A DNA stretch of 64,000 bases from a virus. Numbering within the stretch: position 1 is the stretch's first letter; the number at the start of each line of letters is the position of its first letter. Location: IMG/VR virus record IMGVR_UViG_3300025759_000063, positions 48,202 to 112,201 of that record; one strand, given 5' to 3'. Below, in pieces: positions 27,708 to 56,360 of the stretch. Both the position numbers and the translations under genes were made by a program. Below the pieces are notes generated by a model. It had not been told where the DNA came from. It saw nothing but the letters and a program-made list of their open reading frames with translations, and made no database searches.

Positions 27708-27715
27708 TATTTATA
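27708..27715 (-). promoter_or_regulatory. Late promoter (TATAAATA)
   Basis: Exact match 22 nt upstream of the 133-aa gene, overlapping the stop region of the oxygenase gene. Confidence 0.8.
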
Positions 27716-28373
27716 TTACATTGATTCCATATTTATGCGACAATTCCTTGTTTATATCATCCATAGAAACAAAACCCTTTATCGTAGACCAAGTTACTAT
27801 AGAATATCTTTTTCCTCTCGTAACTGGTTCTACTCCATGAACGTAAAAATGATTTGATGGGAAACATACCATCATTCCCGGTTCGGGTCTTATTCTAATT
27901 TTTAATTCCGGAAACACAAAATCTCCACCTTCAAAATTGTCATTTAGGAAAAATACGGTAGATATATCTCTATCTGTACTTTTTTTCCATATTTTTTCTC
28001 CTGTGGGGGATACCCAAATACTTTCACCATCCACATGAGGTTTATAATGTCCACCAATACCATATGAAAGTATTTGAGGAAATTCACTAGAATCAATCTC
28101 AATATCATAGAATGGATTTATAATTTGACTTACGCACTTTTTCAGTAGGTCTTCAATTTTTAGATACAAATTTCCTATTGGAACAATTTGAGTATCTCTG
28201 GTATTTTTATTTACGGACCAAGATATTTTTCCTGTTCTATTTGTTTCATGTGGATCAAAAATAGAAAGATCTTCTGATGCTGAAGATTCTATGTGTTGTA
28301 TAAGTTCTTGTAGTCCTTCTTTGTTAATCGCATTTGGTCTAATAAGAACATAAGATAAAGGATTTTCAATCAT
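27711..28373 (-). CDS. 2OG-Fe(II) oxygenase (prolyl-4-hydroxylase type)
   Basis: 220 residues with the full iron/oxoglutarate set: HYKPHVDGES (His113, Asp115), FEGGDFVFPE, and FYVHGVEPVTRGKRYSIVTW (His179, Arg189). This is the prolyl-4-hydroxylase alpha-subunit architecture common in cyanophages, where it hydroxylates protein side chains (often proline) in virion or host proteins. First of several modification genes interleaved with fibre genes; a CTAAATA late-promoter variant precedes it. Confidence 0.92.
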   Translation of the reverse strand: MIENPLSYVLIRPNAINKEGLQELIQHIESSASEDLSIFDPHETNRTGKISWSVNKNTRDTQIVPIGNLYLKIEDLLKKCVSQIINPFYDIEIDSSEFPQILSYGIGGHYKPHVDGESIWVSPTGEKIWKKSTDRDISTVFFLNDNFEGGDFVFPELKIRIRPEPGMMVCFPSNHFYVHGVEPVTRGKRYSIVTWSTIKGFVSMDDINKELSHKYGINVI

Positions 28374-28393
28374 ATTTTTTTTTGTTGTTGCAT

Positions 28394-28400
28394 TATTTAG
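28394..28400 (-). promoter_or_regulatory. Late-promoter variant CTAAATA
   Basis: CTAAATA 20 nt before the oxygenase ATG, part of a ~45-bp block repeated behind each kelch gene. Confidence 0.6.
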
Positions 28401-28424
28401 ATTATGTAATTGAGATTGATGATA

Positions 28425-31247
28425 TTACAAATAAACTGGTGTTGGTGAAATTGTTGTTGACGGAAGACTAGCACTTGATGCAGCAAGATAATATCGTCCT
28501 ATACTTAAATCTGCACCAGGAGCTGCTGCTGTGGTATCAGTGGAATAAGTGACCTTATCCATTGTTGCTCTGGGAGCAGGGACTCTACCACCACCAAAGT
28601 AACCATTAGTATTATTACCTGTTGCAGCAAGAGCACGCCGTGCTAAACTTAAATCTGCACCAGGAACTGCTGCTGCGGTATCAGTGGAATAAGTGACCTT
28701 ATCCATTGTTGCTACTGGACCAGGATTACCACCACCAAAGTAACCATTAGTACTATTACCTGTTGCAGCAAGAAAATAACGTCCTGAACGTAAATTCGCA
28801 CCAGGAGCTGCTGCTGTGGTATCAGTGGAATAAGTGACCTTTTCCATTGTTGATCTTGAAGGCTGCCCACCACCAAAGTAACCATTAGTATTATTACCTG
28901 TTGCAGCAAGAGCATATCTTGCTACAGTTAAATTGGCATTAGTGGGTGATGATATTGTATCTGTGGAATAAGTGACCTTATCCATTGTTGACTTTGAACC
29001 AGGATTACCACCACCAAAGTAACCATTAGTACTATTACCTGTTGCAGCAAGCCAATAGCGTGCTACACTTAAATCCGCACCAGGAACTGCTGCTGTGGTA
29101 TCTGTTGAATAAGTGACCTTATCCATTGTTGCTGTGGTAGGATTACCACCACCAAAGTAACCATTAGTAATATTACCTGTTCCAGCAAGACCATATCTTG
29201 CTACACTTAAATTTGCACCAGGAACTGCTGCTGTGGTATCTGTGGAATAAGTGACCTTATCCATTGTTGCTACTGGACCAGTACTACCACCACCAAAGTA
29301 ACCAGTGTTTGGTGCTGGTGAAATAGAGTCAAAAGTAGAAGATGTTGGAGTTGGTGCTGGAGGTTCTATTACAGGAAGTCCATTTGCCCTAGCACTTGAT
29401 GCAGCAAGACGATATCGTGCTGAACTTAAATTGGCATTAGGAACTGCTGCTGTGGTATCAGTGGAATAAGTGACCTTATCCATTGTTGCTGTGAGAGGAA
29501 AACCGCCACCAAAGTAACCATTAGTACTATTGCCTGTTGCGGCAAGAGCATAGCGTGCTGAACTTAAATTGGCACTAGGAGCTGCTGCTGTGGTATCTGT
29601 CGAATAAGTGACCTTATCAATTGTTGCTGTGACAGTAGGGATTCTACCACCACCAAAGTAACCATTGGTACTATTGCCTGTTGCAGCATGACGATATCGT
29701 ACTACACTTAAATCTGCACCAGGAACTGCTGCTGTGGTATCTGTTGAATAAGTGACCTTATCCATTGTTGCTACTGGACCAGGATTACCACCACCAAAGT
29801 AACCATTGGTACTATTGCCTGTTGCAGCAAGACGATATCGTGCTGAACTTAAATTGGCACTAGGAGCTGCTGCTGTGGTATCTGTTGAATAAGTGACCTT
29901 ATCCATTGTTGCTACTGGACCAGGATTACCACCACCAAAGTAACCATTGGTACTATTGCCTGTTGCAGCAAGAGCATAGCGTGCTAAACTTAAATCTGCA
30001 CCAGGAACTGCTGCTGTGGTATCAGTGGAATAAGTGACCTTATCCATTGTTGACTTTGAACCAGGATCACCACCACCAAAGTAACCATTGGTACTATTAC
30101 CTGTTGCAGCAAGAGCACGCCGTGCTACACTTAAATCTGCACCAGGAACTGCTGCTGTGGTATCTGTTGAATAAGTGACCTTATCCATTGTTGCTGTGGT
30201 AGGAGCACCACCACCAAAGTAACCAGTGTTTGGTGTAGGAAGAGTACCATCAGAAAATCTAGTTGCTGGAGGTTCTATTACAGGAAGACCATTTGCCCTA
30301 GCACTTGATGCAGCAAGAGCATATCTTGCTACACTTAAATCTGCACTAGAAGGAAGTGCTCCTGTGGTATCTGTTGAATAAGTGACCTTATCCATTGTTG
30401 CTGTGGTAGGAAAACCGCCACCAAAGTAACCATTGGTACTATTACCTGTTGCAGAAACATAATATCTTGCTACACTTAAATTTGCACTAGAAGGAAGTGC
30501 TCCTGTGGTATCAGTGGAATAAGTGACCTTATCTACTAATTGTGAGCTAGGAATACCACCACCAAAGTAACCGTTGGTACTGTTGCCTGTTGCAGCAAGA
30601 GCATAGTGTGCTACACTTAAATCTGCACCAGGAACTGCTGCTGTGGTATCAGTGGAATAAGTGACCTTATCCATTGTTGCTGTGGTAGGAGTACCACCAC
30701 CAAAGTAACCATTGGTACTGTTACCTGTAGCAGCAAGATATCTACGTGCTGCACTTAAATTGGCATTAGGAACTGCTGCTGTGGTATCAGTGGAATAAGT
30801 GACCTTATCCATTGTTGATACCCCACCAGGACCACCACCACCAAAGTAACCATTGGTACTATTACCTGTTGCAGCAACACCAAAACGTGCTAAACTTAAA
30901 TCTGCACCAGGAACTGCTGCTGTTGTATCGGTGGAATAAGTGACCTTATCCATTGTTGATTTTGGACCAGGATTACCACCACCAAAGTAACCGTTGGTAC
31001 CATTACCTGTTGCAGCAAGAGCTAAACGTGCTAAACTTAAATTGGCACCAGGAACTGCTGCTGTGGTATCTGTTGAATAAGTGACCTTATCCATTATTGA
31101 TGTGGCAGGAACACCACCACCAAAGTAACCAGTGTTTGGAGAACTTGGGGAAGGTACTATCCAAACTTCATCCAGAGGAACCCATTGATTGGAAAATTTA
31201 AATTTAAATGCTTCTTTAAGGGAAAATATTCCTCTGATGTTGGGCAT
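28425..31247 (-). CDS. Giant kelch-like fibre protein, paralogue 1 (940 aa)
   Basis: A ~35-residue N-terminal anchor (MPNIRGIFSLKEAFKFKF, then PLDEVWIVPSP) is followed by 18 repeats of ~46 residues: GYFGGG, a variable 5-9-residue stretch, MDKVTYSTDTTAAVPGA, LS.AR, a second variable stretch, LAATGNSTN. Repeats are grouped 6+6+6, separated by linkers with ASSARANGLP and a Pro/Ser stretch. The GG doublet and aromatic spacing are those of kelch motifs, so three six-bladed beta-propellers are predicted. Ends in PVYL. A tail fibre or receptor-binding role is inferred from position and repeat design. Confidence 0.8.
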   Translation of the reverse strand: MPNIRGIFSLKEAFKFKFSNQWVPLDEVWIVPSPSSPNTGYFGGGVPATSIMDKVTYSTDTTAAVPGANLSLARLALAATGNGTNGYFGGGNPGPKSTMDKVTYSTDTTAAVPGADLSLARFGVAATGNSTNGYFGGGGPGGVSTMDKVTYSTDTTAAVPNANLSAARRYLAATGNSTNGYFGGGTPTTATMDKVTYSTDTTAAVPGADLSVAHYALAATGNSTNGYFGGGIPSSQLVDKVTYSTDTTGALPSSANLSVARYYVSATGNSTNGYFGGGFPTTATMDKVTYSTDTTGALPSSADLSVARYALAASSARANGLPVIEPPATRFSDGTLPTPNTGYFGGGAPTTATMDKVTYSTDTTAAVPGADLSVARRALAATGNSTNGYFGGGDPGSKSTMDKVTYSTDTTAAVPGADLSLARYALAATGNSTNGYFGGGNPGPVATMDKVTYSTDTTAAAPSANLSSARYRLAATGNSTNGYFGGGNPGPVATMDKVTYSTDTTAAVPGADLSVVRYRHAATGNSTNGYFGGGRIPTVTATIDKVTYSTDTTAAAPSANLSSARYALAATGNSTNGYFGGGFPLTATMDKVTYSTDTTAAVPNANLSSARYRLAASSARANGLPVIEPPAPTPTSSTFDSISPAPNTGYFGGGSTGPVATMDKVTYSTDTTAAVPGANLSVARYGLAGTGNITNGYFGGGNPTTATMDKVTYSTDTTAAVPGADLSVARYWLAATGNSTNGYFGGGNPGSKSTMDKVTYSTDTISSPTNANLTVARYALAATGNNTNGYFGGGQPSRSTMEKVTYSTDTTAAAPGANLRSGRYFLAATGNSTNGYFGGGNPGPVATMDKVTYSTDTAAAVPGADLSLARRALAATGNNTNGYFGGGRVPAPRATMDKVTYSTDTTAAAPGADLSIGRYYLAASSASLPSTTISPTPVYL

Positions 31248-31283
31248 GACTTAAAAATATATTTTTTATAATCTTAATATCAC

Positions 31284-31290
31284 TATTTAG
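31284..31290 (-). promoter_or_regulatory. Late-promoter variant CTAAATA
   Basis: 37 nt before the ATG of kelch paralogue 1, within a block duplicated behind all three kelch genes. Confidence 0.6.
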
Positions 31291-31314
31291 ATTATGTAAT
31301 TGTGATTTGTGATA

Positions 31315-34191
31315 TTACAAATAAACTGGTGCTGGTGAACTTGTTACTGGAAGACCATTTGCCCTAGCACTTGATGCAGCAAGACCATAACGTGCTAAAC
31401 TTAAATCTGCACCAGGAACTGCTGCTGTGGTATCAGTGGAATAAGTGACCTTATCCATTGTTGCTAATGGGCCAGTAAGACCACCACCAAAGTAACCATT
31501 AGTACTGTTTCCTGTTGCAGCAAAAACCCAACGTGCTACACTTAAATCTGCACCAGGAGCTGCTGCTGTTGTATCAGTGGAATAAGTGACCTTATCCATT
31601 GTTGCTACTGGACCAGGAATACCACCACCAAAGTAACCGTTGGTACTATTGCCTGTTGCAGCAAGATAAAATCTTGCTACACTTAAATTGGCACTAGGAG
31701 CTGCTGCTGTGGTATCAGTGGAATAAGTGACCTTATCCATTATTGCTGTGGTAGGAGAACCACCACCAAAGTAACCGTTGGTACTATTGCCTGTTGCAGC
31801 AAGATAAAATCTTGCTACACTTAAATTGGCACTAGAAGGAAGTGCTCCTGTGGTATCTGTCGAATAAGTGACCTTATCCATTATTGCTGTGTTAGGAGAA
31901 CCACCACCAAAGTAACCATTGGTACTATTACCTGTTGCAGCAAGATAAAAGCGTGCTACACTTAAATCTGCACTAGGAACTGCTGCTGTGGTATCTGTTG
32001 AATAAGTGACCTTATCCATTGTTGCTGTGATAGGAGAAGCACCACCACCAAAGTAACCATTGGTACTATTACCTGTTGCTGCGACGCCATAACGTGCTGC
32101 ACTTAAATTGGCACCAGGAGCTGCTGCTGTTGTATCAGTGGAATAAGTGACCTTATCCATTGTTGCTACTGGACCAGGAACACCACCACCAAAGTAACCA
32201 GTGTTTGGTGATTGAGCAGAAAAAGTAGAAGATGTTGGAGTTGGTGCTGGAGGTTCTATTACAGGAAGTCCATTTGCCCTAGCACTTGATGCGCCAAGAT
32301 TTGCGCGGCCAAGACTTAAATTGGCACTAGAAGGAAGTGCTCCTGTGGTATCTGTTGAATAAGTGACCTTATCCGTTGCTGCTGTGGTAGGCTGCCCACC
32401 ACCAAAGTAACCATTGGTACTGTTACCTGTTGCAGCAGGATAAGAACGTGCTACACTTAAATCTGCACCAGGAACTGCTGCTCTGGTATCAGTGGAATAA
32501 GTGACCTTATCCATTGTTGCTGTGGTAGGAAGACCCCCACCAAAGTAACCATTGGTACTATTACCTGTTGCAGCAAGTACACGACGTGCTACACTTAAAT
32601 CTGCACCAGGAACTGCTGCTGTGGTATCTGTCGAATAAGTGACCTTATCCATTGTTGTTACGTCATTGGAAGAAGACCTACCACCACCAAAGTAACCATT
32701 AGTACTATTACCTGTTGCAGCAACACCAAAACGTGCTACACTTAAATCTGCACCAGGAACTGCTGCTGTGGTATCAGTGGAATAAGTGACCTTATCCATT
32801 GTTGATACTGCAGGAAAATCGCCACCACCAAAGTAACCATTGGTACTGTTTCCTGTTGCAGCAACACCATATTTTGCTCCACTTAAATTGGCACTAGAAG
32901 GAAGTGCTGCTGTGGTATCAGTGGAATAAGTGATTTTTTCGATTGATGAAAAACCACTACCACCACCAAAGTAACCATCAGCACCATTACCTGTTGCAGT
33001 AAGACCATTACGTCCTACACTTAAATATGCATTAGGAACTGCTCCTGTGGTATCGTTGGAATAAGTGATCTTATCCACTGTTGTTTTTGGACCAAAGATA
33101 TCACCACTACCAAAGTAACCAGTGTTTGGAGTTGAAAAAATTCCATCAGAAAATCTATTTGGAGGCAAACTTAAAGGTTCTGAAGAAAATGTTCCTGTTG
33201 GAAGTCCATTTGCCCTAGCACTTGATGCAGCAAGAAAACCGCGTGCTACACTTAAATCTGCACCAGGAACTGCTGCTGTGGTATCTGTTGAATAAGTGAC
33301 CTTATCCATTGTTGCTGTGAGAGGAAAACCACCACCACCAAAGTAACCATTGGTACTGTTGCCTGTTGCGCCATAACCATAACGCTCTAAACTTAAATTT
33401 GCACTAGAAGGAAGTGCTCCTGTGGTATCAGTGGAATAAGTGACCTTATCCATTATTGATGCTGATGGACCAGTACCAGCACCAAAGTAACCATTAGTAC
33501 TATTACCTGTTGCAGCAAGACTATGTCGTGCTAGACTTAAATCTGCACCAGGAACTGCTGCTGTGGTATCTGTTGAATAAGTGACCTTATCCATTGTTGA
33601 CCTTGAACCCGGAAGACCACCACCAAAGTAACCATTAGTACTATTACCTGTTGCAGCAAGATTAAAACGTGCCAAACTTAAATCTGCACCAGGAACTGCT
33701 GCTGTGGTATCAGTGGAATAAGTGACCTTATCCATTGTTGCTGTGGTAGAAGGGAGTCTACCACCACCAAAGTAACCATTGGTACTATTACCTGTTGCGC
33801 CATGACTAAAACGTACTGCAGTTAAATTTGCACTAGGTGATCTTAATGTGGTCTCTGTCACATAATTTACCTTATCCATTATTGATACCGCAGAAGGAGT
33901 GCCACCCCCACCAAAGTAACCATTATTATTATTTCCTGTAGCGGCAATATATCTACGACCACCAGTTAAATTTGCACCAGGAACTGCTACTGTGGTATCT
34001 GTTGAATAAGTGACCTTATCCATTGTTGCAGTTACGGCGGGAGTAATACCACCACCAAAATAACCAGTGTTTGGAGTAGAAGTCAAAAATGGTGAGGGTG
34101 ATATCCAAACCTCATCCAGAGGAATACCATTATCAGTAACTTTTAAATTATATATTTTTTTAAATGTAAATATCCCTCTGGTATCAGGCAT
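31315..34191 (-). CDS. Giant kelch-like fibre protein, paralogue 2 (958 aa)
   Basis: Same plan as its neighbours: N-terminal anchor (MPDTRGIFTFKKIYNLKV, PLDEVWISPSP), then 18 kelch-like blades in three groups of six and a C-terminal PVYL. The first two blades of the second group are the most diverged (GYFGSG, VDKITYSNDTTG; IEKITYSTDTTAA), suggesting that blades decay and are replaced. Adjacent blades share near-identical DNA. Predicted three-propeller distal fibre protein. Confidence 0.8.
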   Translation of the reverse strand: MPDTRGIFTFKKIYNLKVTDNGIPLDEVWISPSPFLTSTPNTGYFGGGITPAVTATMDKVTYSTDTTVAVPGANLTGGRRYIAATGNNNNGYFGGGGTPSAVSIMDKVNYVTETTLRSPSANLTAVRFSHGATGNSTNGYFGGGRLPSTTATMDKVTYSTDTTAAVPGADLSLARFNLAATGNSTNGYFGGGLPGSRSTMDKVTYSTDTTAAVPGADLSLARHSLAATGNSTNGYFGAGTGPSASIMDKVTYSTDTTGALPSSANLSLERYGYGATGNSTNGYFGGGGFPLTATMDKVTYSTDTTAAVPGADLSVARGFLAASSARANGLPTGTFSSEPLSLPPNRFSDGIFSTPNTGYFGSGDIFGPKTTVDKITYSNDTTGAVPNAYLSVGRNGLTATGNGADGYFGGGSGFSSIEKITYSTDTTAALPSSANLSGAKYGVAATGNSTNGYFGGGDFPAVSTMDKVTYSTDTTAAVPGADLSVARFGVAATGNSTNGYFGGGRSSSNDVTTMDKVTYSTDTTAAVPGADLSVARRVLAATGNSTNGYFGGGLPTTATMDKVTYSTDTRAAVPGADLSVARSYPAATGNSTNGYFGGGQPTTAATDKVTYSTDTTGALPSSANLSLGRANLGASSARANGLPVIEPPAPTPTSSTFSAQSPNTGYFGGGVPGPVATMDKVTYSTDTTAAAPGANLSAARYGVAATGNSTNGYFGGGASPITATMDKVTYSTDTTAAVPSADLSVARFYLAATGNSTNGYFGGGSPNTAIMDKVTYSTDTTGALPSSANLSVARFYLAATGNSTNGYFGGGSPTTAIMDKVTYSTDTTAAAPSANLSVARFYLAATGNSTNGYFGGGIPGPVATMDKVTYSTDTTAAAPGADLSVARWVFAATGNSTNGYFGGGLTGPLATMDKVTYSTDTTAAVPGADLSLARYGLAASSARANGLPVTSSPAPVYL

Positions 34192-34224
34192 GATTTATTG
34201 ATATTTTTTGATACTTAATATTAT

Positions 34225-34231
34225 TATTTAG
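34225..34231 (-). promoter_or_regulatory. Late-promoter variant CTAAATA
   Basis: 34 nt before the ATG of kelch paralogue 2, in the duplicated intergenic block. Confidence 0.6.
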
Positions 34232-34255
34232 ATTATGTAATTGTGATTTGTGATA

Positions 34256-37096
34256 TTACAAATAAACTGGTGCTGCTAATGGAAGTCCATTTGCCCTAGC
34301 ACTTGATGCGGTAACATACCTACGTTCCACGGTTAAATATGCACCAGGAACGTCTGCTGTGGTATCAGTAGAATAAGTGACCTTATCCATTGTTGATAAT
34401 ACTGGACTAGTTCTACCACCACCAAAGTAACCGCTGGTACTATTACCTGTTGCCCCAAGACCATTACGTGCTAAAGTTAAATTCGCACCAGGAACTGCTG
34501 CTGTGGTATCAGTGGAATAAGTGACCTTATCCATTGTTGACTTTGAACCAGGAGTACCACCACCAAAGTAACCATTGGTACTGTTACCTGTTGCAGCAGT
34601 AACCCAACGTGCTACACTTAAATTTGCACTAGAAGGAAGTGTTGATGTTGTATCGTTAGAATAAGTGACCTTATCAATTGTTACTAAGATAGGAACTCCC
34701 CCACCACCAAAATAACCATTGGTAGTGTTGCCTGTTGCAGAAATTCTATTAAATTCATTAATTAAATTGGCACTAGGAGCTGCTGCTGTGGTATCAGTGG
34801 AATAAGTGACCTTATCCATTGTTGATACTTTACCGGGAGATGAACCACCACCAAAGTAACCATTAGTACTATTACCTGTTGCGCCATGACCATATCTTGC
34901 TACACTTAAATCTGCACCAGGAACTGCTGCTGTGGTATCAGTGGAATAAGTGACCTTATCCATTGTTGCTACTGGACCAGGAAACCCACCACCAAAGTAA
35001 CCATTGGTGCCGTTACCTGTAGCAGTAGTGTAACGTGCTGCACTTAAATTGGCACTAGGAGCTGCTGCTGTGGTATCTGTTGAATAAGTGACCTTATCCA
35101 TTATTGCTGTAGTACCGGGAAGAAGTTCACCACCACCAAAGTAACCAGTGTTTGGTAATTGAGCAGAAACAGTAGAAGATGTTGGAGTTGGTGCTGGAGG
35201 TTCTATTGCAGGAAGTCCATTTTCCCTAGCACTTGATGCAGCAAGAGCACGCCGTGCTACACTTAAATCTGCACCAGGAACTGCTGCTGTTGTATCAGTA
35301 GAATAAGTGACCTTATCCATTGTTGATACTGGAACAGAATTACCACCACCAAAGTAACCATTGGTACTATTACCTGTTGCAGCAACATAAAATCTTGCTA
35401 CACTTAAATTGGCACTAGGAGCTGCTGCTGTTGTATCAGTGGAATAAGTGACCTTATCCATTATTGCTGTACTAGGATTACCACCACCAAAGTAACCGTT
35501 GGTACTATTACCTGTTGCAGCAAGACCATAACGTGCTACACTTAAATCTGCACCAGGAACTGCTGCTGTGGTATCAGTGGAATAAGTGACCTTATCCATT
35601 GTTGCGAATGGACCAGGCTGCCCACCACCAAAGTAACCATTGGTACTGTTACCTGTTGCAGCAATAAAACCGCGTGCTACACTTAAATCTGCACTAGAAG
35701 GAAGTGCTGCTGTGGTATCAGTGGAATAAGTGACCTTATCCATTGTTGCTGTGGTATCAGGGATTCTACCACCACCAAAGTAACCATTGGTACTATTGCC
35801 TGTTGCAGCATGAACATAGCGTGCTACACTTAAATCTGCACTAGGAGCTGCTGCTGTGGTATCTGTTGAATAAGTGACCTTATCCATTGTTGCTGTGATA
35901 GGAGTACCACCACCAAAGTAACCATTAGTACTATTACCTGTTGCAGCAGGATAAGCACGTGCTACACTTAAATTGGCATTAGGAACTGCTGCTGTGGTAT
36001 CAGTAGAATAAGTGACCTTATCCATTGTTGCTGTGTTAGGAGCACCACCACCAAAGTAACCAGTGTTTGGTGTCGGAAGAGCACCATCAGAAAATCTAGT
36101 TGCTAGAGGTTCTATTACAGGAAGTCCATTTGCCCTAGCACTTGATGCGCCACGATATCTTTTTGCTGCACTTAATGGAGATGATGTGAGTTCTGATACG
36201 GTCTCTGTCGAGTAATTAATCTTATCTAGAGTTGCTTTGCTAGGACTACCACCAGCAAAGTATCCGTCTGTTGAGTTTCCAGATCCAGTTATTCCATCCC
36301 CGGTATCACTTAAATAGACGCTAGGAACTGCTACTGTAGTATCAGTGGAATAAGTGATCTTATCTATTGTTGATACTGTACCAGGAATATTACCACCAGC
36401 AAAGTATCCGTGTGTTGAGTTTCCTGCTGCACCAAGTCCGCGACGTGCTGAACTTACATTGCCACTAGAAGGAAGTGCTCCTGTGGTATCAGTAGAATAA
36501 GTGACCTTATCCATTGTTGCTACATAGGGGCCGGGAAGATTGTCACCACCACCAAAGTAACCGTTGGTACTATTGCCTGTTGCAGCAAGAAAATATCTTC
36601 CTTGCGTTAAATCTGCACCAGGAACTGCTGCTGTGGTATCTGTAGAATAAGTGATCTTATCCATTGTTGATTTTTGTAAACGTCCCCCACCAAAGTAACC
36701 GTTGGTACTATTGCCTGTTGCAGCAAGACCATAACGTGCTGCACTTAAATTGGCACTAGGAGCTGCTACTGTGGTATCAGTGGAATAAGTGACCTTATCC
36801 ATTGTTGCTGCGGTAGGACTACCACCACCAAAGTAACCGTTGGTACCATTACCTGTTGCAGCAAGACCATAACGTGCTACACTTAAATCTGCACCAGGAA
36901 CTGCTCCTGTAGTATCTGTTGAATAAGTGACCTTATCCATTGTTGATACTGTAGGAAAACCGCCACCACCAAAGTAACCAGTGTTTGGAGAACTTGGGGG
37001 AGGTACTATCCAAACTTCATCCAGAGGAACCCATTGATTGGAAAGTTTAAATTCGGATATATCTTGAAAAGAAAATATTCCTCTGGTATCAGGCAT
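34256..37096 (-). CDS. Giant kelch-like fibre protein, paralogue 3 (946 aa)
   Basis: Anchor MPDTRGIFSFQDISEFKL then PLDEVWIVPPP (almost the paralogue 1 version), 18 blades in groups of six, C-terminal PVYL. Blades 5-6 of the first group carry GYFAGG and strongly diverged sequences (TIDKITYSTDTTVAVPS; LDKINYSTETVSEL). Linkers ASSARANGLP and ASSARENGLP mark propeller boundaries. First of the three to be transcribed; a CTAAATA promoter variant precedes it. Confidence 0.8.
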   Translation of the reverse strand: MPDTRGIFSFQDISEFKLSNQWVPLDEVWIVPPPSSPNTGYFGGGGFPTVSTMDKVTYSTDTTGAVPGADLSVARYGLAATGNGTNGYFGGGSPTAATMDKVTYSTDTTVAAPSANLSAARYGLAATGNSTNGYFGGGRLQKSTMDKITYSTDTTAAVPGADLTQGRYFLAATGNSTNGYFGGGDNLPGPYVATMDKVTYSTDTTGALPSSGNVSSARRGLGAAGNSTHGYFAGGNIPGTVSTIDKITYSTDTTVAVPSVYLSDTGDGITGSGNSTDGYFAGGSPSKATLDKINYSTETVSELTSSPLSAAKRYRGASSARANGLPVIEPLATRFSDGALPTPNTGYFGGGAPNTATMDKVTYSTDTTAAVPNANLSVARAYPAATGNSTNGYFGGGTPITATMDKVTYSTDTTAAAPSADLSVARYVHAATGNSTNGYFGGGRIPDTTATMDKVTYSTDTTAALPSSADLSVARGFIAATGNSTNGYFGGGQPGPFATMDKVTYSTDTTAAVPGADLSVARYGLAATGNSTNGYFGGGNPSTAIMDKVTYSTDTTAAAPSANLSVARFYVAATGNSTNGYFGGGNSVPVSTMDKVTYSTDTTAAVPGADLSVARRALAASSARENGLPAIEPPAPTPTSSTVSAQLPNTGYFGGGELLPGTTAIMDKVTYSTDTTAAAPSANLSAARYTTATGNGTNGYFGGGFPGPVATMDKVTYSTDTTAAVPGADLSVARYGHGATGNSTNGYFGGGSSPGKVSTMDKVTYSTDTTAAAPSANLINEFNRISATGNTTNGYFGGGGVPILVTIDKVTYSNDTTSTLPSSANLSVARWVTAATGNSTNGYFGGGTPGSKSTMDKVTYSTDTTAAVPGANLTLARNGLGATGNSTSGYFGGGRTSPVLSTMDKVTYSTDTTADVPGAYLTVERRYVTASSARANGLPLAAPVYL

Positions 37097-37589
37097 GATT
37101 TATTAATATTTTTTGATACTTAATATTATTATTTAGATTGTATGAATGCCAAATATTGCCTTTAAATATAACCATGCGATTATATCTTGCAGGAATGCAA
37201 CCATACTCTTTCCACAATTCTGGATCAGAACTAAAAATATTTTTTAAACAATCTTCTTTAATCTGAAGATATTTAATTTCCTCTTGAGAAGGAAATACCT
37301 CCAAACCAGTTTGTTTATGTGAATAAAATTTAATTCCCAACTCTCCAAATGCTTCTAGGGGTAATGACATATAAATTACGGCAATCCAATCACATTTAAG
37401 ATGTGCCACAACCCCAGAATTTGTGTTTTTTTCGTTTGTTGCTTCTATGACACTAATTGGACCACCTAAAATTTGAGATATTTTACCAACAGTCTCATGA
37501 GTAAGTACACATTCGTTCTCAAAAAAACCTCTATGATAGTGATATGGAATATCATAGAAGTCATCAACCACAATTATTCTTTCATTCAT
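37089..37589 (-). CDS. DUF6445-like oxygenase-fold protein, possibly inactive (166 aa)
   Basis: 166 residues: RIIVVDDFYDIPYHYHRGF at the N-terminus, a central VAHLKCDWIAVIYMSLPLEA and a C-terminal YNRMVIFKGNIWHSYN. This is the scaffold of phage DUF6445/2OG-oxygenase-like proteins, but the iron-binding HxD seen in the 41524-42138 paralogue is replaced by H-x3-D. It may be a degenerate or non-catalytic member. Overlaps the first kelch gene by 8 nt, implying co-expression. Confidence 0.7.
   Translation of the reverse strand: MNERIIVVDDFYDIPYHYHRGFFENECVLTHETVGKISQILGGPISVIEATNEKNTNSGVVAHLKCDWIAVIYMSLPLEAFGELGIKFYSHKQTGLEVFPSQEEIKYLQIKEDCLKNIFSSDPELWKEYGCIPARYNRMVIFKGNIWHSYNLNNNIKYQKILINHA
37130..37136 (-). 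promoter_or_regulatory. Late-promoter variant CTAAATA
   Basis: 34 nt before the ATG of kelch paralogue 3, inside the 3' end of the DUF6445-like gene. Confidence 0.55.
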
Positions 37590-37591
37590 TC

Positions 37592-40039
37592 TTATTTAAA
37601 TCCTTGTCCAAAGATTTTTTTATTTTCTTCCGCTGGTTTAATTGCTGCACCGTATCCCAAGTCAGTTCCGGTTAGTTTCTCATAACCTTTCAACACCTTA
37701 CTTTGTAAGTCTCCAATGAATTCCATACGTCCTCTTTGATCCATAAGTTTATCCATTGGGAGATAACCTTCTTTGAGATTATTTCTTTGATCGATTATTG
37801 ATGGTGCAGAAGCACGACGCATTGCTTGAATATTTGCGCCAGAAATTCCAGTTTGTGCTGCCATCAAATCATCCAATGCTTGCTCTGCAAGACGGGTATC
37901 CCAATAATTTTGATTCTCCTCTAAGAATTGCTCTCTATTTGGAGGATTGCCTCCATTTTGTGCAACAAGTTTTTCGAGAATTTTATCTAAATGTTCCATT
38001 TGATAAAGTCTATCGCGAATTTCAATTTCACTTCCTTTTAAGTAATGAGTCAGTTCTAATTCATCCAAATCATACCAACAAAGTTTCTTTCCTCCACCAC
38101 CAGGTCCACTAACTTCCCACATAAGAGGTTGGGACTTGTCCTCATGATTTTTCCACTTATATTCAAATTCGCGAACTTTTTCTTTCATTTCAATAAGCTT
38201 AAACATATATCCTGTTGCCATTATGCGACGTTCTTTTAGAATGTGTTCAAAAGAAACAGAGATATTATGAGTGTCGAGACCAATAAACTTTTCTATTTGG
38301 AAGTTAGTTCGACCCTGTGCCATTTCTTTGTCACTTTCTTCCCACTTAAGAACATTTTCAGATGCTTGACGAAGATATTCTTCATCATTCACCGCCTTTT
38401 TAGAATCTATGGGATTATAAGTCAACGCGGAAGAGTTTTCAGTAGACATAGTTTTTTCTTTCATTTTTGATTGACGTGTTGCAAAAAATATTCCTGTTTT
38501 ATAAGGCGTATTTTCTATATTATGTATAATGAAATTTTTACTTTCCAAAAATTGAATTAAATCCTTTATGGTTTTTCCTTCAATATCAAAATTTGTATGG
38601 CAAGAAGATAATTCATGATATTCACCAACAATATTCTCAATTTTCTCAATAAGACTTGAATTCATTAGTATTTCATACTCAGAACCTTCAGCATCAATTT
38701 TGAGTAGACTCACTTTCTCAAAATCTTTCAGTATGTAGTCAAGAGAAACTGTTTTTACATTTACTTCTTCAATTTTTTCTGGAAAGTCTATGGATTGTGG
38801 ATGTTTGTAAAAAGAATTTACGCCTGTGTTATAGCAATTATGGTTATAAAATATAACATTTTCTGAGTTTTCTTTCCAAACTGCTATATTATTTGCTTTC
38901 CACCCTTCATAATTCTTGAGATTTTTTAGGAGATATTCGTAGTTATTCTTATTTGCCTCATAACATGTAATATTTTTACATCCTTTATCTAAACATAACT
39001 TGGCAAAATATCCACGATGGGAACCAATATCAATAACAATATCATTTTCTGAAAATTCTTTTATTTTATATTCATTCTTTAAATATACTTCTTTATAAAT
39101 TTCAGAATCGAAACTATCTGGTTGAAAGTAAACTTGAGTAATTTGAACAATTAGATTCCTCCACTGCTCTGCAATATCTTTCCAATTGTACTTTTCTACA
39201 ACATGATCTGATATAATCTTTGAAACTTCTTTATAAAATTTAGGTTGATGATCATAATAATCAAGTGCTTTACAGCAAGCATTTGTAAAATCTATGATAA
39301 ATTTATCAGTAATTTTCCACCCACTTGAAGTGTTCTCGCCATCAATGGGAACAACTGTTGCATTTCTTTCTCCAGCAACCTCAGAAAGTGCTCCAATATT
39401 TGTAATTATTGGATAAGAACCGCAACGCATTGCTTCTCCCATTGAAACTCCAAATGTCTCCTCCCAAATACAAGGGTGGATAAAAAATGCAGATTCTTGA
39501 TATTGCTTTACTAGGTCTTCCCTATCAACTGCTTCAGAATATTCAACATTTGGTATTTTTTTTAGATGATCATAAATGCTTAAAAAATTATCTGGTCCAG
39601 GTCCATATAATGACATTGATGAAAAGATTTTAAACTTTACATCAGGATGTTGTTCTTGAATTCTTGGAATGACTTTTGCCAACACTTCCAAACCTTTATA
39701 TGGTACAGAAGTATAGATCATTGTTTTTGTTTTTTTATCTGAATAAGAAAACATATCTGCAACACCATTTGGTATTACACTGATCTTGTCTTCTGGAACA
39801 TTGTGGTGTATAATAAACTGTTCCTTATTCCATTGAGACGGAGAAACAATGTGATTTACAATATTGTGATCAAAATCTAAAAATAATGGTTGGTCATAAG
39901 CATGATGTGCCCATAAAATTTTGTATTCTTGATTTGATTTTTTTATTTCTTGTGGAATATGAGAAACAAATACATTCTCCGGAAATGAATAATGCTCTTG
40001 TAGATAAAAATAAGATGTTTCAGTTGCTCCAGATTTCAT
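37592..40039 (-). CDS. Fusion: GT4 glycosyltransferase + FkbM methyltransferase + phage structural domain (815 aa)
   Basis: Three parts in one continuous frame. Residues 1-300: GT-B glycosyltransferase (family 4) with SVPYKGLEVL (nucleotide site) and HPCIWEETFGVSMGEAMRCG (E-x7-E), but a short N-terminal acceptor domain. Residues ~330-525: FkbM-type methyltransferase (VIDIGSHRGYFAKL; LLKIDAEGSEYEIL). Residues 531-815 (from MSTENSSALTYNPIDSKKAV): a helical, charged domain that looks like an independent cyanophage virion protein. Met531 (38447-38449) could be an internal start giving the C-terminal part alone. Suggests that a modifying enzyme is physically attached to a structural part. Confidence 0.75.
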   Translation of the reverse strand: MKSGATETSYFYLQEHYSFPENVFVSHIPQEIKKSNQEYKILWAHHAYDQPLFLDFDHNIVNHIVSPSQWNKEQFIIHHNVPEDKISVIPNGVADMFSYSDKKTKTMIYTSVPYKGLEVLAKVIPRIQEQHPDVKFKIFSSMSLYGPGPDNFLSIYDHLKKIPNVEYSEAVDREDLVKQYQESAFFIHPCIWEETFGVSMGEAMRCGSYPIITNIGALSEVAGERNATVVPIDGENTSSGWKITDKFIIDFTNACCKALDYYDHQPKFYKEVSKIISDHVVEKYNWKDIAEQWRNLIVQITQVYFQPDSFDSEIYKEVYLKNEYKIKEFSENDIVIDIGSHRGYFAKLCLDKGCKNITCYEANKNNYEYLLKNLKNYEGWKANNIAVWKENSENVIFYNHNCYNTGVNSFYKHPQSIDFPEKIEEVNVKTVSLDYILKDFEKVSLLKIDAEGSEYEILMNSSLIEKIENIVGEYHELSSCHTNFDIEGKTIKDLIQFLESKNFIIHNIENTPYKTGIFFATRQSKMKEKTMSTENSSALTYNPIDSKKAVNDEEYLRQASENVLKWEESDKEMAQGRTNFQIEKFIGLDTHNISVSFEHILKERRIMATGYMFKLIEMKEKVREFEYKWKNHEDKSQPLMWEVSGPGGGGKKLCWYDLDELELTHYLKGSEIEIRDRLYQMEHLDKILEKLVAQNGGNPPNREQFLEENQNYWDTRLAEQALDDLMAAQTGISGANIQAMRRASAPSIIDQRNNLKEGYLPMDKLMDQRGRMEFIGDLQSKVLKGYEKLTGTDLGYGAAIKPAEENKKIFGQGFK

Positions 40040-40043
40040 AATA

Positions 40044-40697
40044 CTACCCCTGATAAATGTGATAACCTGTGTGATTTAAATGAATACTTGTGTCTAACCA
40101 AATATCATATCCTACTTGCGAAGCTCTGTAAAAAAAACTTTTGTCCTCCGACATAAACCCATTTTTGGACTTATGTTCAGCAAAATAATGATATGAGTTT
40201 CTAATTTCTCCACATGTGTGTGGAGTATCTGAATGATAGTCCGAAGGAATATATTTTAGATCTGGATATTTTCTTGCAATTTCTAAGAATACCTGGCGAT
40301 GAATGAGAACAAATCCCATTCCATTTCCATTTATTTTAAGTAAATTACCATCTCTTCTTTCTGGTTGAGATACTTCTACACAATATCTTTCCGGGATTAC
40401 CTTCATTGGATAAGCACCAGATACTATTGGAACTTGATGTGAAAGTAGTTTAATTACATCTTCAGATTCGAATCCAATATCACTATCCAAGAAGAGAAGA
40501 TAATCATGTTCTGTATTGTTAATAAAAAAATTTGCTATCTTTGACCTTGCCTGAGTAATCAAAGATGAGTTGGAAAGGGTTAACAACCCATGATTTATAT
40601 CATTTCTAATTAATGTTTTTCCTAAATTAAACAATCCAACAGTTGTCTTTTCACTTACAACCCCACCTCCGCAGGGTAATCCTATCATTATACCCAT
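40044..40697 (-). CDS. GT-A-like glycosyltransferase (217 aa)
   Basis: 217 residues: IGLPCGGGVVSEKTT at the N-terminus, SSLITQARSKIANFF, the DxD strand YLLFLDSDIGFE (about 68-79), NGNGMGFVLIHRQVF, and a C-terminal MSEDKSFFYRASQVGYDIW with a final H-x-G. Same plan as the 2116-2892 protein. Predicted to add a sugar to virion protein or host glycan. Lies 4 nt upstream of the fusion gene, so the two are co-expressed. Confidence 0.8.
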   Translation of the reverse strand: MGIMIGLPCGGGVVSEKTTVGLFNLGKTLIRNDINHGLLTLSNSSLITQARSKIANFFINNTEHDYLLFLDSDIGFESEDVIKLLSHQVPIVSGAYPMKVIPERYCVEVSQPERRDGNLLKINGNGMGFVLIHRQVFLEIARKYPDLKYIPSDYHSDTPHTCGEIRNSYHYFAEHKSKNGFMSEDKSFFYRASQVGYDIWLDTSIHLNHTGYHIYQG

Positions 40698-40699
40698 AA

Positions 40700-41521
40700 T
40701 TAATAATACCTATGATTATAATTTTTCCAGTATTCTAAGTTGCTGTAGGTATTTATGATCTCTTGGGATAAAACATCTTGAGGTGATTTTGATTTTTTTT
40801 CAAGTCTTTTTCTTACATGATGCATGTCCTTGAGATACCATTGGTCATCAATCTCTCTATGAGTATTCTCAATATTGTTAAAATTGTGAGAATAGTAATC
40901 CAACTCTAAGAAATTGTAGATATCTGCCAATGTTTTTTCTGGGAAATTAATCAAATCTTCATATTCTACCATGTGTAGATATTTTTTACCATCACCCCTT
41001 ATAAAAGCTTGAGATTGAGCCCACAATGCTTGTTCGACAATCCCATCTTTACTCATCAAATAATGGCAACGATTGTCATTGTTGATTGGTAAATTATGTT
41101 CAATAAGATATTGGTCTACGAATGATACCTGATCTGAATTACGATTTATTAATTCAATGAAAGATGTCAATATTTCTGTAATATTTCTTACTGGACAGAT
41201 AATTTTGGGAAAGGGAGTGATAAAAGTTTTTATCATTTCAATGTTGTTACTCCAGGCCCGACAATGATCTATAATTATTGGTTTTTCTACTTCCACATAA
41301 TAATTGTTAATAATACTTGAAATGACTTTATGTGCGGACTTTGGTTTTGGGTATCCCAGATATTGTTCACTATCCTTAAAATACTCATTGTTATAATGAG
41401 TTAGTTCTAAAACTGGACTAACGGGTTCTGTATGGAGTATTGGATTTTGATTAAGAATACTCTTTAATAAAGTGCTTCCTGATCTTGGAAGACCCGCCAT
41501 AAAATAATATTTTTTGTTCAT
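40700..41521 (-). CDS. Sulfotransferase
   Basis: 273 residues from the ATG 41519-41521; the nearby GTG would overlap the upstream stop. The N-terminal PAPS 5'-phosphosulfate loop YFMAGLPRSGSTLLKSIL (residues 6-23) and CPVRNITEILTSF (3'-phosphate site, about 111-123) identify a PAPS-dependent sulfotransferase. It transfers sulfate to a hydroxyl of a sugar or Tyr. Sits between oxygenase and glycosyltransferase genes, consistent with decoration of fibre glycans; target inferred. Confidence 0.85.
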   Translation of the reverse strand: MNKKYYFMAGLPRSGSTLLKSILNQNPILHTEPVSPVLELTHYNNEYFKDSEQYLGYPKPKSAHKVISSIINNYYVEVEKPIIIDHCRAWSNNIEMIKTFITPFPKIICPVRNITEILTSFIELINRNSDQVSFVDQYLIEHNLPINNDNRCHYLMSKDGIVEQALWAQSQAFIRGDGKKYLHMVEYEDLINFPEKTLADIYNFLELDYYSHNFNNIENTHREIDDQWYLKDMHHVRKRLEKKSKSPQDVLSQEIINTYSNLEYWKNYNHRYY

Positions 41522-41523
41522 GT

Positions 41524-42138
41524 TCACCAACCAGTGGGATTAAAAAAGAATAATTGAACTAATCGACCATTTTCTAGAGAATTGCCAAAATTATAATTAT
41601 GAGAATGCCATAAGTCAGCTCTGAATATTACAATACGATTGTAATTCATTGGGGACAATAAGTATCTAGTCCATTTTGATCTATCTAGTCCTTCTCCATA
41701 AACAGTTGTATTCCATGCTTCTTTTGATGAGAAATAACCATAATGATTTGCTTCTTTGTCTGTTTGTGGACACCTTTCCATTTTAGTTTTATTATGCATC
41801 CAAAATGAGGTCCCACCTTCATCAATAGATTGTTCTGGTGGATTGAGATAACAAACAGCACCAAATTCCCATGTCGGATCTACATGAACATCTTGGCGAT
41901 AAGAGTCTGACTCCAACGACAATCTAAAGTATCCGTTGGGTTGTGCTGGAATGAGTTTGCGATTGAGAATTGACTCAAATCTATTGTGAAGTTCTGGGGG
42001 ATAGTAGTTGTCTTGTGAATTTTTTCCTGGATATGTGTACTGATCACTGGGATCGGGATATGGTGAGTTTAATGCTATTTTTCTTATCTTATCTGGTTCA
42101 GAATAAAAACCATCAAGTATAATAATACTACGTCTCAT
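41524..42138 (-). CDS. DUF6445/2OG-Fe(II) oxygenase-like protein (204 aa)
   Basis: 204 residues: RSIIILDGFYSEPDKIRKIA, then RQDVHVDPTWEFGAVCYL (His85, Asp87 as HxD), EGGTSFWMHN, YNRIVIFRADLWHSHN (distal His) and GRLVQLFFFN (Arg). A complete iron-site set in the DUF6445 scaffold, probably an active oxygenase; substrate unknown. A late promoter lies 23 nt upstream; the sulfotransferase gene follows within 3 nt. Confidence 0.8.
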   Translation of the reverse strand: MRRSIIILDGFYSEPDKIRKIALNSPYPDPSDQYTYPGKNSQDNYYPPELHNRFESILNRKLIPAQPNGYFRLSLESDSYRQDVHVDPTWEFGAVCYLNPPEQSIDEGGTSFWMHNKTKMERCPQTDKEANHYGYFSSKEAWNTTVYGEGLDRSKWTRYLLSPMNYNRIVIFRADLWHSHNYNFGNSLENGRLVQLFFFNPTGW

Positions 42139-42178: not shown

Positions 42179-45100
42179 TTATACTATTTGTTTTCCAGAT
42201 ACTTGTACATCTATTGTTGATGTTTGATCTACCTGAACATTTAATATATCATTAAGATTTAACCTCTTAGGGCTGCTATCTATTATTTCAACACTACCAT
42301 ATTTTGGTATTATTAGATTGTCTACTATTCTTATAGTACTTACTCCATTTGCAATACTTAAACTTATTGGATATGCGCCAGTATCTGTACGATTGGTAAG
42401 TCTTATAGATTGTATCACACTGGGATAAGTTGAAGATGTATAAATTCCAATTGGATCAGTAACTCCAATTCCAACAGTACCAAATCCAACGCCAAAATAC
42501 TCCGTGCTTGTCTTTTCTTGGTATGATACGTGTACCTCAACTACACTATCAGCACCATTTCTATCATAATCCAAACCTCTCATTGCAATTTGGTCTGAAG
42601 GATTTAATATTTGAGGCTGAATCAGAAGATCTATTCCAGTACCTGTAGGAATTGGTACGCTGTATGCAAAGTAAGATCTTTCTCCACCATTAAAATCAAA
42701 GGAACCAGTTACATTAACTTCAGTATTTCCTGCAGCAACATTTGCTGCATGTATTGAATATACTATGTATTGTTTTCCTGCTGTAGAAGGGAAGGTTATT
42801 ATTGAACCACCAATTCCAGTTAAAACTGCGGAAAAACTGCTTGTAATTCCTGTATTAAATTGATAAGAATCTACAGATTCTGCGGAAACTCCAGTTAGAT
42901 TTGAACCGTCACCATAATAAGTAACAACACCAGAAGTTGCAGTGATGATACCCGATGAAATTTGAACTGTTCCTAATGTAGAAACCCCAGAAATTTTAAT
43001 ATCACCAATGACATCTAGTTTTGATTGTGGATTTGTCGTTCCAATACCGACATTCTCAGTGCTTCCAAAAGGTGCTAACTGAATAGTTCCATCAGCATTT
43101 ACATCAATACTTGGAATACCAGAAACATCATTGACTGAGAAGATAGAACCTGATGTGAGATTATTGGTAACAGAGAACAGTTGACCAGCAGATCCCTGAA
43201 CATCAATTGCAGTAGTTCCAGTTCCAACATCAATTGTCAGTTTTGCTGTTGGAGTTGTTGTTCCAATGGAAAGTGAATCACGAACAGTTGCTGTTCCATT
43301 TACGTCAAGTGTTTGAGTTGGAATTGTGGTTCCGATACCAACTTTTCCATCAGAGATTATTCTAGCCCTTTCTGTTCCATTTGTCGCAAATGCAATTCCA
43401 TCATCAGACGCTCTAAAAATTCCAGTATTTTGATCTAACTTAAATGAAATTGATGGACTTGACTCAGTACCATCAGCAAATAATACATTATTGTTAAAGG
43501 TTGATATTCCAGTTACTGTTACACCTTGACCTACGATTAAAGTATCTTTAACGTCAACATTATTGTTAAAGGTTGATATTCCAGTTACAGTAACACCTTG
43601 ACCTACGATTAAAGTATCTTTAACGTCAACATTATTGTTAAAGGTTGATATTCCAGTTACTGTTACACCTTGACCAACTGTTAAGGTGTTATTAATGTTG
43701 ACATTATCATTAAAGGTTGATATTCCAGTTACAGTAACACCTTGACCTACGATTAAAGTATCTTTAACGTCAACATTATTGTTAAAGGTTGATATTCCAG
43801 TTACTGTTAATCCACTTCCAACAATTAAAGTATCTTTAACGTCAACATTATTGTTAAAGGTTGATATTCCAGTTACAGTAACACCTTGACCAACAGTTAA
43901 AGTGTCTCTAATATCTAAATTTGCACCTACATCAACATTAGAATTGAACGTAGAAATACCAGTTATAGTAACTCCTTGACCAACTGTTAAAGTGTTTTGG
44001 ATATCTACGGATGCATCAATATCCAAATTAGATGCAAAGGTAGAAACACCTGTTACTGTTAATCCACCACCAACAGTTAAAGTGTCTCTAATATCTACAT
44101 TTGCATTTATATCAACATTAGAATTAAAAGTAGAAATACCAGTTACGGTAACACCTTGACCAACTGTTAAAGTCTCTTGGATATCTACATTTGCATTTAT
44201 ATCCAAATTAGATGCAAAGGTAGAAACACCTGTTACTGTTAATCCACCACCAACTACTAAACTATCTTGTATATCTACATTTGCATTTATATCAACATTG
44301 GAATTGAATGTAGAGATACCTGTTACAGTAACTCCTTGACCAACAGTTAAAGTGTTTTGGATATCTACATTTGCATTTATATCAACATTATCATTAAAAG
44401 TAGAAATACCTGTTACAGTAACTCCTTGACCAACAGTTAAAGTGTTTTGGATATCTAAATTGGCATCAACATCAACAAAATCTTGGAAAGTTGTGATTCC
44501 AGTTTTTGTGTCATTTTCGTCGGACCTTAAAAACTGAGTAGAATCTACACCATCTAATGATGATGCATCTCCTGCCGACATAGAGGTAGTATCTGCCCAG
44601 GTTGCTCCAGCACCAGTTGAAACTAAAACTTGACTTGCTTGTCCTGGTTTATTTAATGCATCATAAAATTCCCCACGAATTCTGATACTTCCAGCAATAT
44701 CAAGAAGTGCTGTCGGATTAGTGGTTCCAATACCAACAGATTGAGTTGCAATTCCAGTTACACGAAGTCTTTCTTGTCCGCCAGTTTCGATGGTAAATGT
44801 GTCATCACTTGGAAATCTGATTGCAGTGTCAGTATCTCCGGTATGAACAATCTTATCTGCAACAGAAACTTCACCAGAAACGCTGAGTGTTGTGAGAGTT
44901 CCAAGACCCGTCAGTGAAGAAGCAGTTACACCAGAACCTAATGTTGTTGCAGAAAGGACTTCTGTATTGTTAATCTTATAAACTTTACCAGATTCTAAAT
45001 CTAAACTTTGAGAAAGAGTTCCAAGACCCGTCAGTGAAGAAGCAGTTACACCAGAACCTAATGTTGTTGCAGAAAGGACTTCTGTATTGTTAATCTTATA

Positions 45101-46015: not shown

Positions 46016-46040
46016 TTTTAATTCTACCCTTCTATAATAG

Positions 46041-46047
46041 TATTTAG
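46041..46047 (-). promoter_or_regulatory. Late-promoter variant CTAAATA
   Basis: 26 nt before the ATG of the 1278-aa fibre gene. Confidence 0.55.
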
Positions 46048-46083
46048 ATTGTTATTTTTTGCAAATTGGTATTGATAAAATTA

Positions 46084-48963: not shown

Positions 48964-48967
48964 TTAC

Positions 48968-49318
48968 TTATTGTTTTGCGGTTTCAAGAATGCTTAATAC
49001 AATATTTAATTCATTATTGGCGCTTGCCTGGACTTTAATCACATCATTTGTTTCAAGCGCCAATCTTCCGTCTGGAACTAAATTTATACTATCATTTGGG
49101 GGGACAAATGAATTATTTGCAAATTTGTAGTCTGCTGGAATTTCTCCAGGACGAGAATGAATTGCTGTAATTTGAGAAGTTGTGTCTGATGTAAGGTTAG
49201 TAACCTGAGCCAAAATAACAATTGCAGCAACTCCAACAGGACAAGTATAAATTCCAACAGAACTTGTTGTTAGTTCTTTTCTGATTGTTTTAAAACTATT
49301 AAGTGCTACTGCTGCCAT
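48968..49318 (-). CDS. Small structural beta protein (116 aa)
   Basis: 116 residues: MAAVALNSFKTIRKELTTSS, VGIYTCPVGVAAIVILAQV, DSINLVPDGRLALETNDVIK and NIVLSILETAKQ. This is a single immunoglobulin- or jelly-roll-like domain with the 'YTAP.G..A.V....V.N' style of small virion capping proteins. One base separates it from the preceding giant gene. Probably a fibre or baseplate accessory. Confidence 0.75.
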   Translation of the reverse strand: MAAVALNSFKTIRKELTTSSVGIYTCPVGVAAIVILAQVTNLTSDTTSQITAIHSRPGEIPADYKFANNSFVPPNDSINLVPDGRLALETNDVIKVQASANNELNIVLSILETAKQ

Positions 49319-49319
49319 T

Positions 49320-54623: not shown

Positions 54624-54656
54624 TTGTTCTACTCGAAAGGTTCACTATCCCCTTGT

Positions 54657-54668
54657 TATTTATTTATA
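54657..54668 (-). promoter_or_regulatory. Tandem late promoters (AATAAATA/TATAAATA)
   Basis: Two overlapping exact late-promoter words 4 bp apart, 34 nt before the 1767-aa gene. Confidence 0.8.
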
Positions 54669-54670
54669 AA

Positions 54671-56350: not shown

Positions 56351-56360
56351 TTTACTTTAC

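Follow-up and report, generated by a model that had tools for sequence, protein, structure and literature searches.

Tandem genes for predicted six-bladed kelch propellers with two hypervariable loops per blade in a cyanophage-type T4-like virus

Kelch propellers such as KLHL12, KLHL20, Keap1 and the designed SAKe6 have six blades of a common topology, end strand B with a GG doublet, and meet their ligands with the face formed by the BC and DA loops (PMC6720452, PMC7333892). The BC loops frame the binding pocket and the DA loops make up its floor, and it is by this face that KLHL12 and KLHL20 bind peptides (PMC7333892; PMC6720452). Proteins of the same fold or the same family as those described here have been recorded in phages; these include PHROG_19111, S-SKS1 M4QT40 and the kelch proteins of BcepSaruman, CBB (CBB_552) and P-HM2. 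CBB_552 is part of the mature phage CBB virion (PMC5259590), and the P-HM2 kelch gene is unique with respect to the co-isolated P-HM1 (PMC3037559). The papers we found on phage kelch proteins contain no description of a rule of six, of diversification confined to one face, or of array recombination.

The blades reported below share the kelch features listed above. They differ from those of KLHL12, KLHL20, Keap1 and SAKe6 in being near-identical tandem copies that lack the consensus W, form 1–6 rings in each chain, and confine nearly all their variation to two loops. By mechanism, and as an analogy, their closest counterpart is the hnwd family of WD40 propellers of Podospora anserina (het-d, het-e, het-r), in which highly similar tandem repeats undergo concerted evolution and, at a few binding-face positions, diversifying selection, and shuffle in segments (PMC2873952). 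The hnwd repeats, however, are WD40 rather than kelch and belong to fungal NLR proteins, and their number is unstable, whereas the phage arrays come in multiples of six. The targets of phage diversity-generating retroelements (DGRs), namely C-type lectin tips and tentaclins, likewise expose hypervariable residues, presumably for binding to host surfaces (PMC10743442). Those proteins have another fold; here no reverse transcriptase was found in 20 records and no template in the window, and variation appears to come via many copies and recombination.

The window, by which we mean the whole 64,000-nucleotide stretch analysed, is part of an IMG/VR virus record of 112,201 bp. It has a gene for a gp23 capsid protein of the T4 type (E = 2.9e-151), and its UvsW-like helicase is most similar to those of Synechococcus phages such as S-SKS1 (62–63% identity). 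On these grounds, the source is a T4-like virus of the cyanophage type, with a host that is probably cyanobacterial. Three propeller genes lie in tandem on the minus strand. In order of transcription, they are gene 1 (34256..37096; P0003, 946 aa), gene 2 (31315..34191; P0002, 958 aa) and gene 3 (28425..31247; P0001, 940 aa), and all match PHROG_19111 (E = 2.9e-142, 3.2e-143 and 2.2e-152, respectively). An earlier note on this DNA had described three tandem paralogues of these lengths with 54 blades, to which the ORFs correspond exactly. It had also described 18 repeats per protein in sixes and PVYL ends. Our count gives the same for all three genes: a leader, then 18 GYFxxG repeats of 46–51 aa in three groups of six (54 in total), and a C-terminal PVYL. 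TRF recovered the repeat arrays at a period of 138–144 bp. All three genes recur on another contig, IMGVR_UViG_3300025769_000096, where they differ at one nucleotide only (an A-to-V change in a linker), so a one-off error of assembly does not explain the arrays.

Each group of six repeats corresponds to one predicted propeller, designated A to C from the N terminus. By repeat count, gene 1 comprises 1A (36119..36979), 1B (35210..36061) and 1C (34280..35146); gene 2, 2A (33199..34065), 2B (32263..33120) and 2C (31348..32199); and gene 3, 3A (30282..31130), 3B (29373..30224) and 3C (28461..29303), all on the minus strand. The blade framework had been called almost invariant, which holds generally but less so for 1A, the block that opens the gene transcribed first; its blades 4–6 are diverged to the point of degeneracy. 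Linkers reading ASSARANGLP, a sequence noted earlier, close seven of the nine blocks; one block ends in ASSARENGLP and another, 3C, in ASSASLP.

We modelled one block (3A; P0001 residues 1–327) with AlphaFold2, using an alignment of 67 blocks from relatives. The model consists of six sets of four strands (pLDDT 91.6, pTM 0.87). Foldseek searches against solved structures matched it to SAKe6BE-L2 (E = 5.8e-18) and KLHL17 (E = 1.8e-17), as well as to Keap1 and KLHL12, with E values from 5.8e-18 to 1e-15 and TM scores of up to 0.75 (query) and 0.89 (target); the matches listed at the top were all kelch domains or kelch-derived designs. Matches in BFVD include S-SKS1 M4QT40 and the kelch protein of Burkholderia phage BcepSaruman. 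A profile of the block found SAKe6FR (3.9e-14) and KLHL12 (1.2e-9) among PDB sequences, and PF24681 was matched by 9 of the 67 members, all of them diverged (best E = 8.4e-15). Taken alone, the window proteins matched no kelch model in Pfam, and Pfam, NCBIfam and single-sequence phmmer yielded no useful family for them; kelch was reached by profiles only. In the alignment, GYFGGG falls on the kelch YxxGG, i.e. the GG doublet of strand B; the consensus Y is present (MDKVTY), and A or T stands at the W position. For the six-repeat block, the prediction is thus a six-bladed kelch β-propeller at high confidence, in line with the fold that the earlier note had proposed and left to structure prediction to check.

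To see where the blades differ, we computed entropy by column for the 54 window blades. It peaks in columns 7, 8, 11 and 12, just after GYFGGG (up to 3.3 bits), and in columns 35 and 38–40, after LSxAR (2.1–2.7 bits); nearly all remaining columns lie below 1.7 bits. Length variation is almost restricted to the first of these segments. Both segments had been singled out before and both are hypervariable, but a weaker third has to be added, TAAVPGAD / TAAAPSAN / TGALPSSAN, with a one-residue length variant. Alignment to kelch domains places columns 7, 8, 11 and 12 in the BC loop and columns 35 and 38–40 in the DA loop, and the loops are rich in Pro, Gly, Ser and Thr. When KLHL12–DVL1 contact residues from PMC7333892 were transferred to the phage blades, using those within the aligned part, all seven mappable contacts (F289, Y321, L371, Y434, I439, F481, Y512) coincided with variable BC/DA sites. 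These data agree with the suggestion that the variable segments are surface loops, and the model would put them together on one face, the ligand side of kelch domains. Window blades end in AATGNSTN, which places a GNST (N-x-S/T) motif in the A–B turn, expected to lie opposite the variable loops. The last residue of this ending is mostly lineage-specific, being N in the window and H or A in relatives.

Blades are also alike at silent sites. At positions where two blades have the same amino acid, the codon is identical in 73–99% of cases, whereas the codon usage of adjacent genes would predict 25–50%. In a set of 15 genomes, blades of one genome agree more often in their framework codons (0.74) than blades of different genomes (0.62), a sign of concerted evolution. 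For pairs of biallelic sites within blades, all four combinations occur in 75%, and linkage (r2) is 0.077 at distances <10 bp, compared to 0.026 at >25 bp (permutation P = 0.001). Linkage decay with distance was significant in 9 of 12 genomes and not significant in the other three. Recurrent mutation could also give rise to four combinations, but its effect would be independent of distance, making short-tract recombination the simpler reading. Homogenisation of the framework by short-tract recombination (gene conversion) between blades, with sub-blade segments recombining, is hence well supported by these sequence comparisons. BC and DA similarity are weakly correlated within blades (Mantel r 0.16, P < 0.002), which rules out simple independence of the two loops and suggests that blades are partly copied as units too. 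The idea that near-identical blade DNA recombines therefore stands as far as the homogenised framework and the exchange of sub-blade segments are concerned, but does not extend to free shuffling of blade number.

With moderate confidence, we favour the view that these genes encode a virion-displayed multi-propeller adhesin, diversified by recombination among blades and by selection; virion display and receptor binding are the inferred parts of this view. Each product would begin with a short leader that probably serves for attachment and continue as three consecutive six-bladed kelch β-propellers, and each ring would present six BC and six DA loops on one side as its binding face. Frequent short-tract recombination within and between the three genes would keep the frameworks alike and move loop segments among blades, and diversifying selection would retain novel residues in the two variable loops. 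A genome would then carry nine propellers with nine different binding faces. The propellers would most likely be displayed on the virion beside the tail fibres and bind variable molecules of the (probably cyanobacterial) host surface, with an arms race over that surface as the presumed selective force. The earlier note had likewise suggested a receptor-binding array, which it placed at the tips of the fibres.

PHROG matches and a survey of neighbouring genes place the propeller genes in a tail-fibre module. All neighbours described here are on the minus strand. Directly downstream of the array is a 2OG-Fe(II) oxygenase gene (27711..28373; PF13640, E = 2.1e-17), with a homologue in 57 of the 84 fetched loci. 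Directly upstream, overlapping the start of gene 1 by 8 bp, is a gene for a DUF6445 protein (37089..37589; PF20043; 53/84 loci), one of two such proteins that flank the array. It is followed at 37592..41530 by genes for a glycosyltransferase/FkbM methyltransferase, a PHROG_1574 protein and a sulfotransferase (homologues in 47/84, 33/84 and 39/84 loci, respectively). Further upstream, at 42179..61844, lie tail-fibre and virion structural genes with PHROG matches to tail fiber, baseplate wedge and virion structural families. The oxygenase, DUF6445, glycosyltransferase/FkbM methyltransferase and sulfotransferase genes make up a conserved cassette (27711-41530) that accompanies the propeller genes, and propellers, fibres or host surface may be the targets that it modifies. 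In marine phages, tail-fibre genes and Fe(II)-dependent oxygenases abound in under-recruiting islands (PMC3909814).

Several smaller points concern these loci. One scan of IMG/VR returned 65 propeller loci. The glycosyltransferase/methyltransferase ORF (37592-40039) looks like a fusion by comparison with relatives: what forms its C-terminal part, beginning near aa 530 (ALTYNPIDSKKAVNDEEYLRQASENV...), stands as an ORF of its own in L003, L006 and L007. The linear S-SKS1 record (L086, HQ633071.1 1-1226) ends within a propeller gene, and another S-SKS1 propeller stretch occupies an unannotated gap near the sulfotransferase gene (L083 4850-6225).

All three propeller proteins begin with a leader of 39–42 aa. 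A leader profile located these segments at 36980..37096 (gene 1, RGxFxL...W.PLDEVW), 34066..34191 (gene 2) and 31131..31247 (gene 3), each on the minus strand; in the model of 3A, the last of these forms two short helices at 56–80 pLDDT. The pattern RGxFxL...W...DVW occurs in the virus's own record on the three propeller genes only, and in eight relatives it is nearly confined to long propeller ORFs. This distribution suggests that the leader is probably a tag for assembly or attachment. No known fibre attachment family matched the leader, and tblastn with the 38-aa leader alone against phages gave no match.

In other settings, kelch domains mostly act inside cells as modules that bind proteins; KLHL12 and KLHL20, as noted, use the corresponding face to bind peptides. 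The array, moreover, is flanked by enzyme genes rather than by structural genes only. One could therefore imagine that the propellers work inside the cell, where their variable faces would bind and neutralise diverse host proteins (e.g. of defence) or proteins of rival phages. We consider this unlikely, since the cassette directly adjoins tail-fibre and virion structural genes, every propeller gene has the conserved leader expected of an assembly tag, and a tandem architecture of two to six propellers suits avid display.

Support for the adhesin reading over a purely structural one comes from selection on the loops. In comparisons between blades, pN/pS exceeded 1 in all 15 genomes both for the BC loop (1.05–1.94) and for the DA loop (1.14–3.8), versus 0.19–0.43 for the framework; these values are pairwise and tree-free, were obtained from paralogous blades, and can be distorted by recombination. 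In hypervariable codons, bases 1 and 2 vary and base 3 is constant (T in columns 8, 38, 39 and 40; A in columns 12 and 35), far beyond what codon usage would give, which points to selection at the amino-acid level on a recently homogenised background. Were the proteins instead a structural repeat or decoration, such as a shield or a general polysaccharide-binding coat, the loop variation would reflect relaxed constraint. The Pro/Gly/Ser/Thr composition of the loops would suit such a role, and the neighbouring sulfotransferase, glycosyltransferase and 2OG oxygenase could modify a coat. Relaxed constraint, however, would bring pN/pS near 1 at most, and would account neither for third bases being held constant nor for variable sites coinciding with kelch ligand contacts; this explanation, too, seems improbable to us.

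A further question is whether the loops owe their diversity to a DGR lying outside the record. The record is incomplete, and the hypervariable codons are NNT-like (AAT, TTT, ACT, CTT, GTT...), akin to the NNY codons of DGR targets. A search for reverse transcriptase (RVT_1) found none in 20 records, several of them incomplete: the virus's own, 17 relatives (222-kb and 208-kb records among them), S-SKS1 and AG-345-L05. Nor does the window contain an extra blade copy that could act as a template repeat. At hypervariable codons 12 and 35, a third-base A is kept in 47/54 and 48/54 blades, respectively, while bases 1 and 2 vary. Adenine-specific mutagenesis by a DGR would have hit these third bases too, so the pattern speaks against it. 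A DGR thus appears very improbable, and the results favour the prior proposal that the loops vary without one.

A broader proposal, which we put forward tentatively, is that cyanophage-type T4-like viruses have a retroelement-free route to diversification, a possible phage counterpart of fungal hnwd. Ring closure would lock the blade number of multi-propeller adhesins, while recombination would reshuffle loop segments among dozens of blades and selection would pick those with new binding. If this is true, a virion type with at least nine different binding faces could recognise hosts broadly or switch between them quickly. It would bear on how phages, above all marine cyanophages, track changing host surfaces without diversity-generating retroelements. 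The genetic design would be a concrete one, in which a homogenised scaffold is combined with two variable loops and a ring of fixed size; it occurs widely in virus records, yields precise predictions and lends itself to easy testing. The arrays would also be a natural match for the SAKe kelch designs and for the recognition propellers of fungi, and might be used to build binder libraries.

Blade number was assessed by running a blade HMM over all fetched loci and counting in complete, non-redundant ORFs. Such ORFs contain 12 (6 ORFs), 18 (20), 24 (7), 30 (4) or 6 (one) blades, almost always in blocks of exactly six; where a block departs from this, the HMM mostly seems to have overlooked blades. 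The propeller rather than the blade is, by these counts, the unit that changes in number, and six looks like a ring-closure rule. In the modelled block, GYFGG forms the first strand and LAAS the last. Closure most likely occurs by pairing of the last strand (LAASS) with the first (GYFGG), and the need for this pairing would be why blades come in sixes; if the last segment closes the first blade, this would also explain why sixth blades end in ASSARANGLP instead of AATGNSTN. An extended β-solenoid or fibre shaft in place of separate propellers, in line with the long continuous strands of a shallow full-length model and with the fibre shafts common among adjoining genes, is highly improbable, given that this model, built from 14 sequences only and uninformative on the arrangement of the three rings, has a pLDDT of 45.7 versus 91.6 for the six-blade block with its strong kelch matches, and that exact sixes in dozens of proteins have no reason in a solenoid. 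The only clear departure from six is the third block of L023 47-3604, with four blades between two six-blade blocks, which may be a deletion or an assembly collapse.

Free shuffling of blade number, as the earlier note had envisaged, is not supported by comparisons between relatives. In several pairs of near-identical phages, no blade-number polymorphism was found, and more distant relatives differ by six-blade units only. Phages that are 99.8–100% identical have identical blade arrays, implying no hypermutation of the array at this level of divergence. By contrast, L048 and L052, whose marker genes adjoining the array are ~96% identical and whose leaders hardly differ, contain 24 and 30 blades, respectively, and share not one blade with a common BC loop, let alone with both loops. 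Divergence of the variable loops between relatives is seen at ~96% marker identity, where no BC loop is shared, but hardly at 99.8–100%, where arrays are kept apart from one patch resembling a loop swap.

A few close pairs show individual changes. Contigs L021 and L027 (99.9% identical) differ by a 54-bp patch of five SNPs that turns one BC loop from NPGPL into FPGPV, and L026 has the same form as L027. No exact donor blade was found in the compared sequences, and the patch, though resembling a loop swap, could reflect chimeric metagenome assembly. For L009 and L042 (98.4% identical overall), the automatic comparison suggested a BC-loop replacement, which turned out to be a single G-to-D change in the BC loop, the one change in 708 bp of blades. 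L059 (at 7055) and L061, near-identical contigs, differ by an in-frame six-base indel at the C–D turn of one blade. Outside the blades, L021 (5910-6105) and L026 differ by fifteen SNPs in ~200 bp, a recombination-like patch in contigs that are otherwise near-identical. Finally, the fibre/structural gene at 42179-46015 contains 24-aa (72-bp) GVSTFNNNVDVKNTLTVGQGVTVT repeats and encodes 1278 aa, versus about 1470 aa in L072, the phages being otherwise 99.85% identical. This fibre gene thus differs by ~190 aa between the window and a near-identical relative, and the numbers in the propeller array are unchanged.
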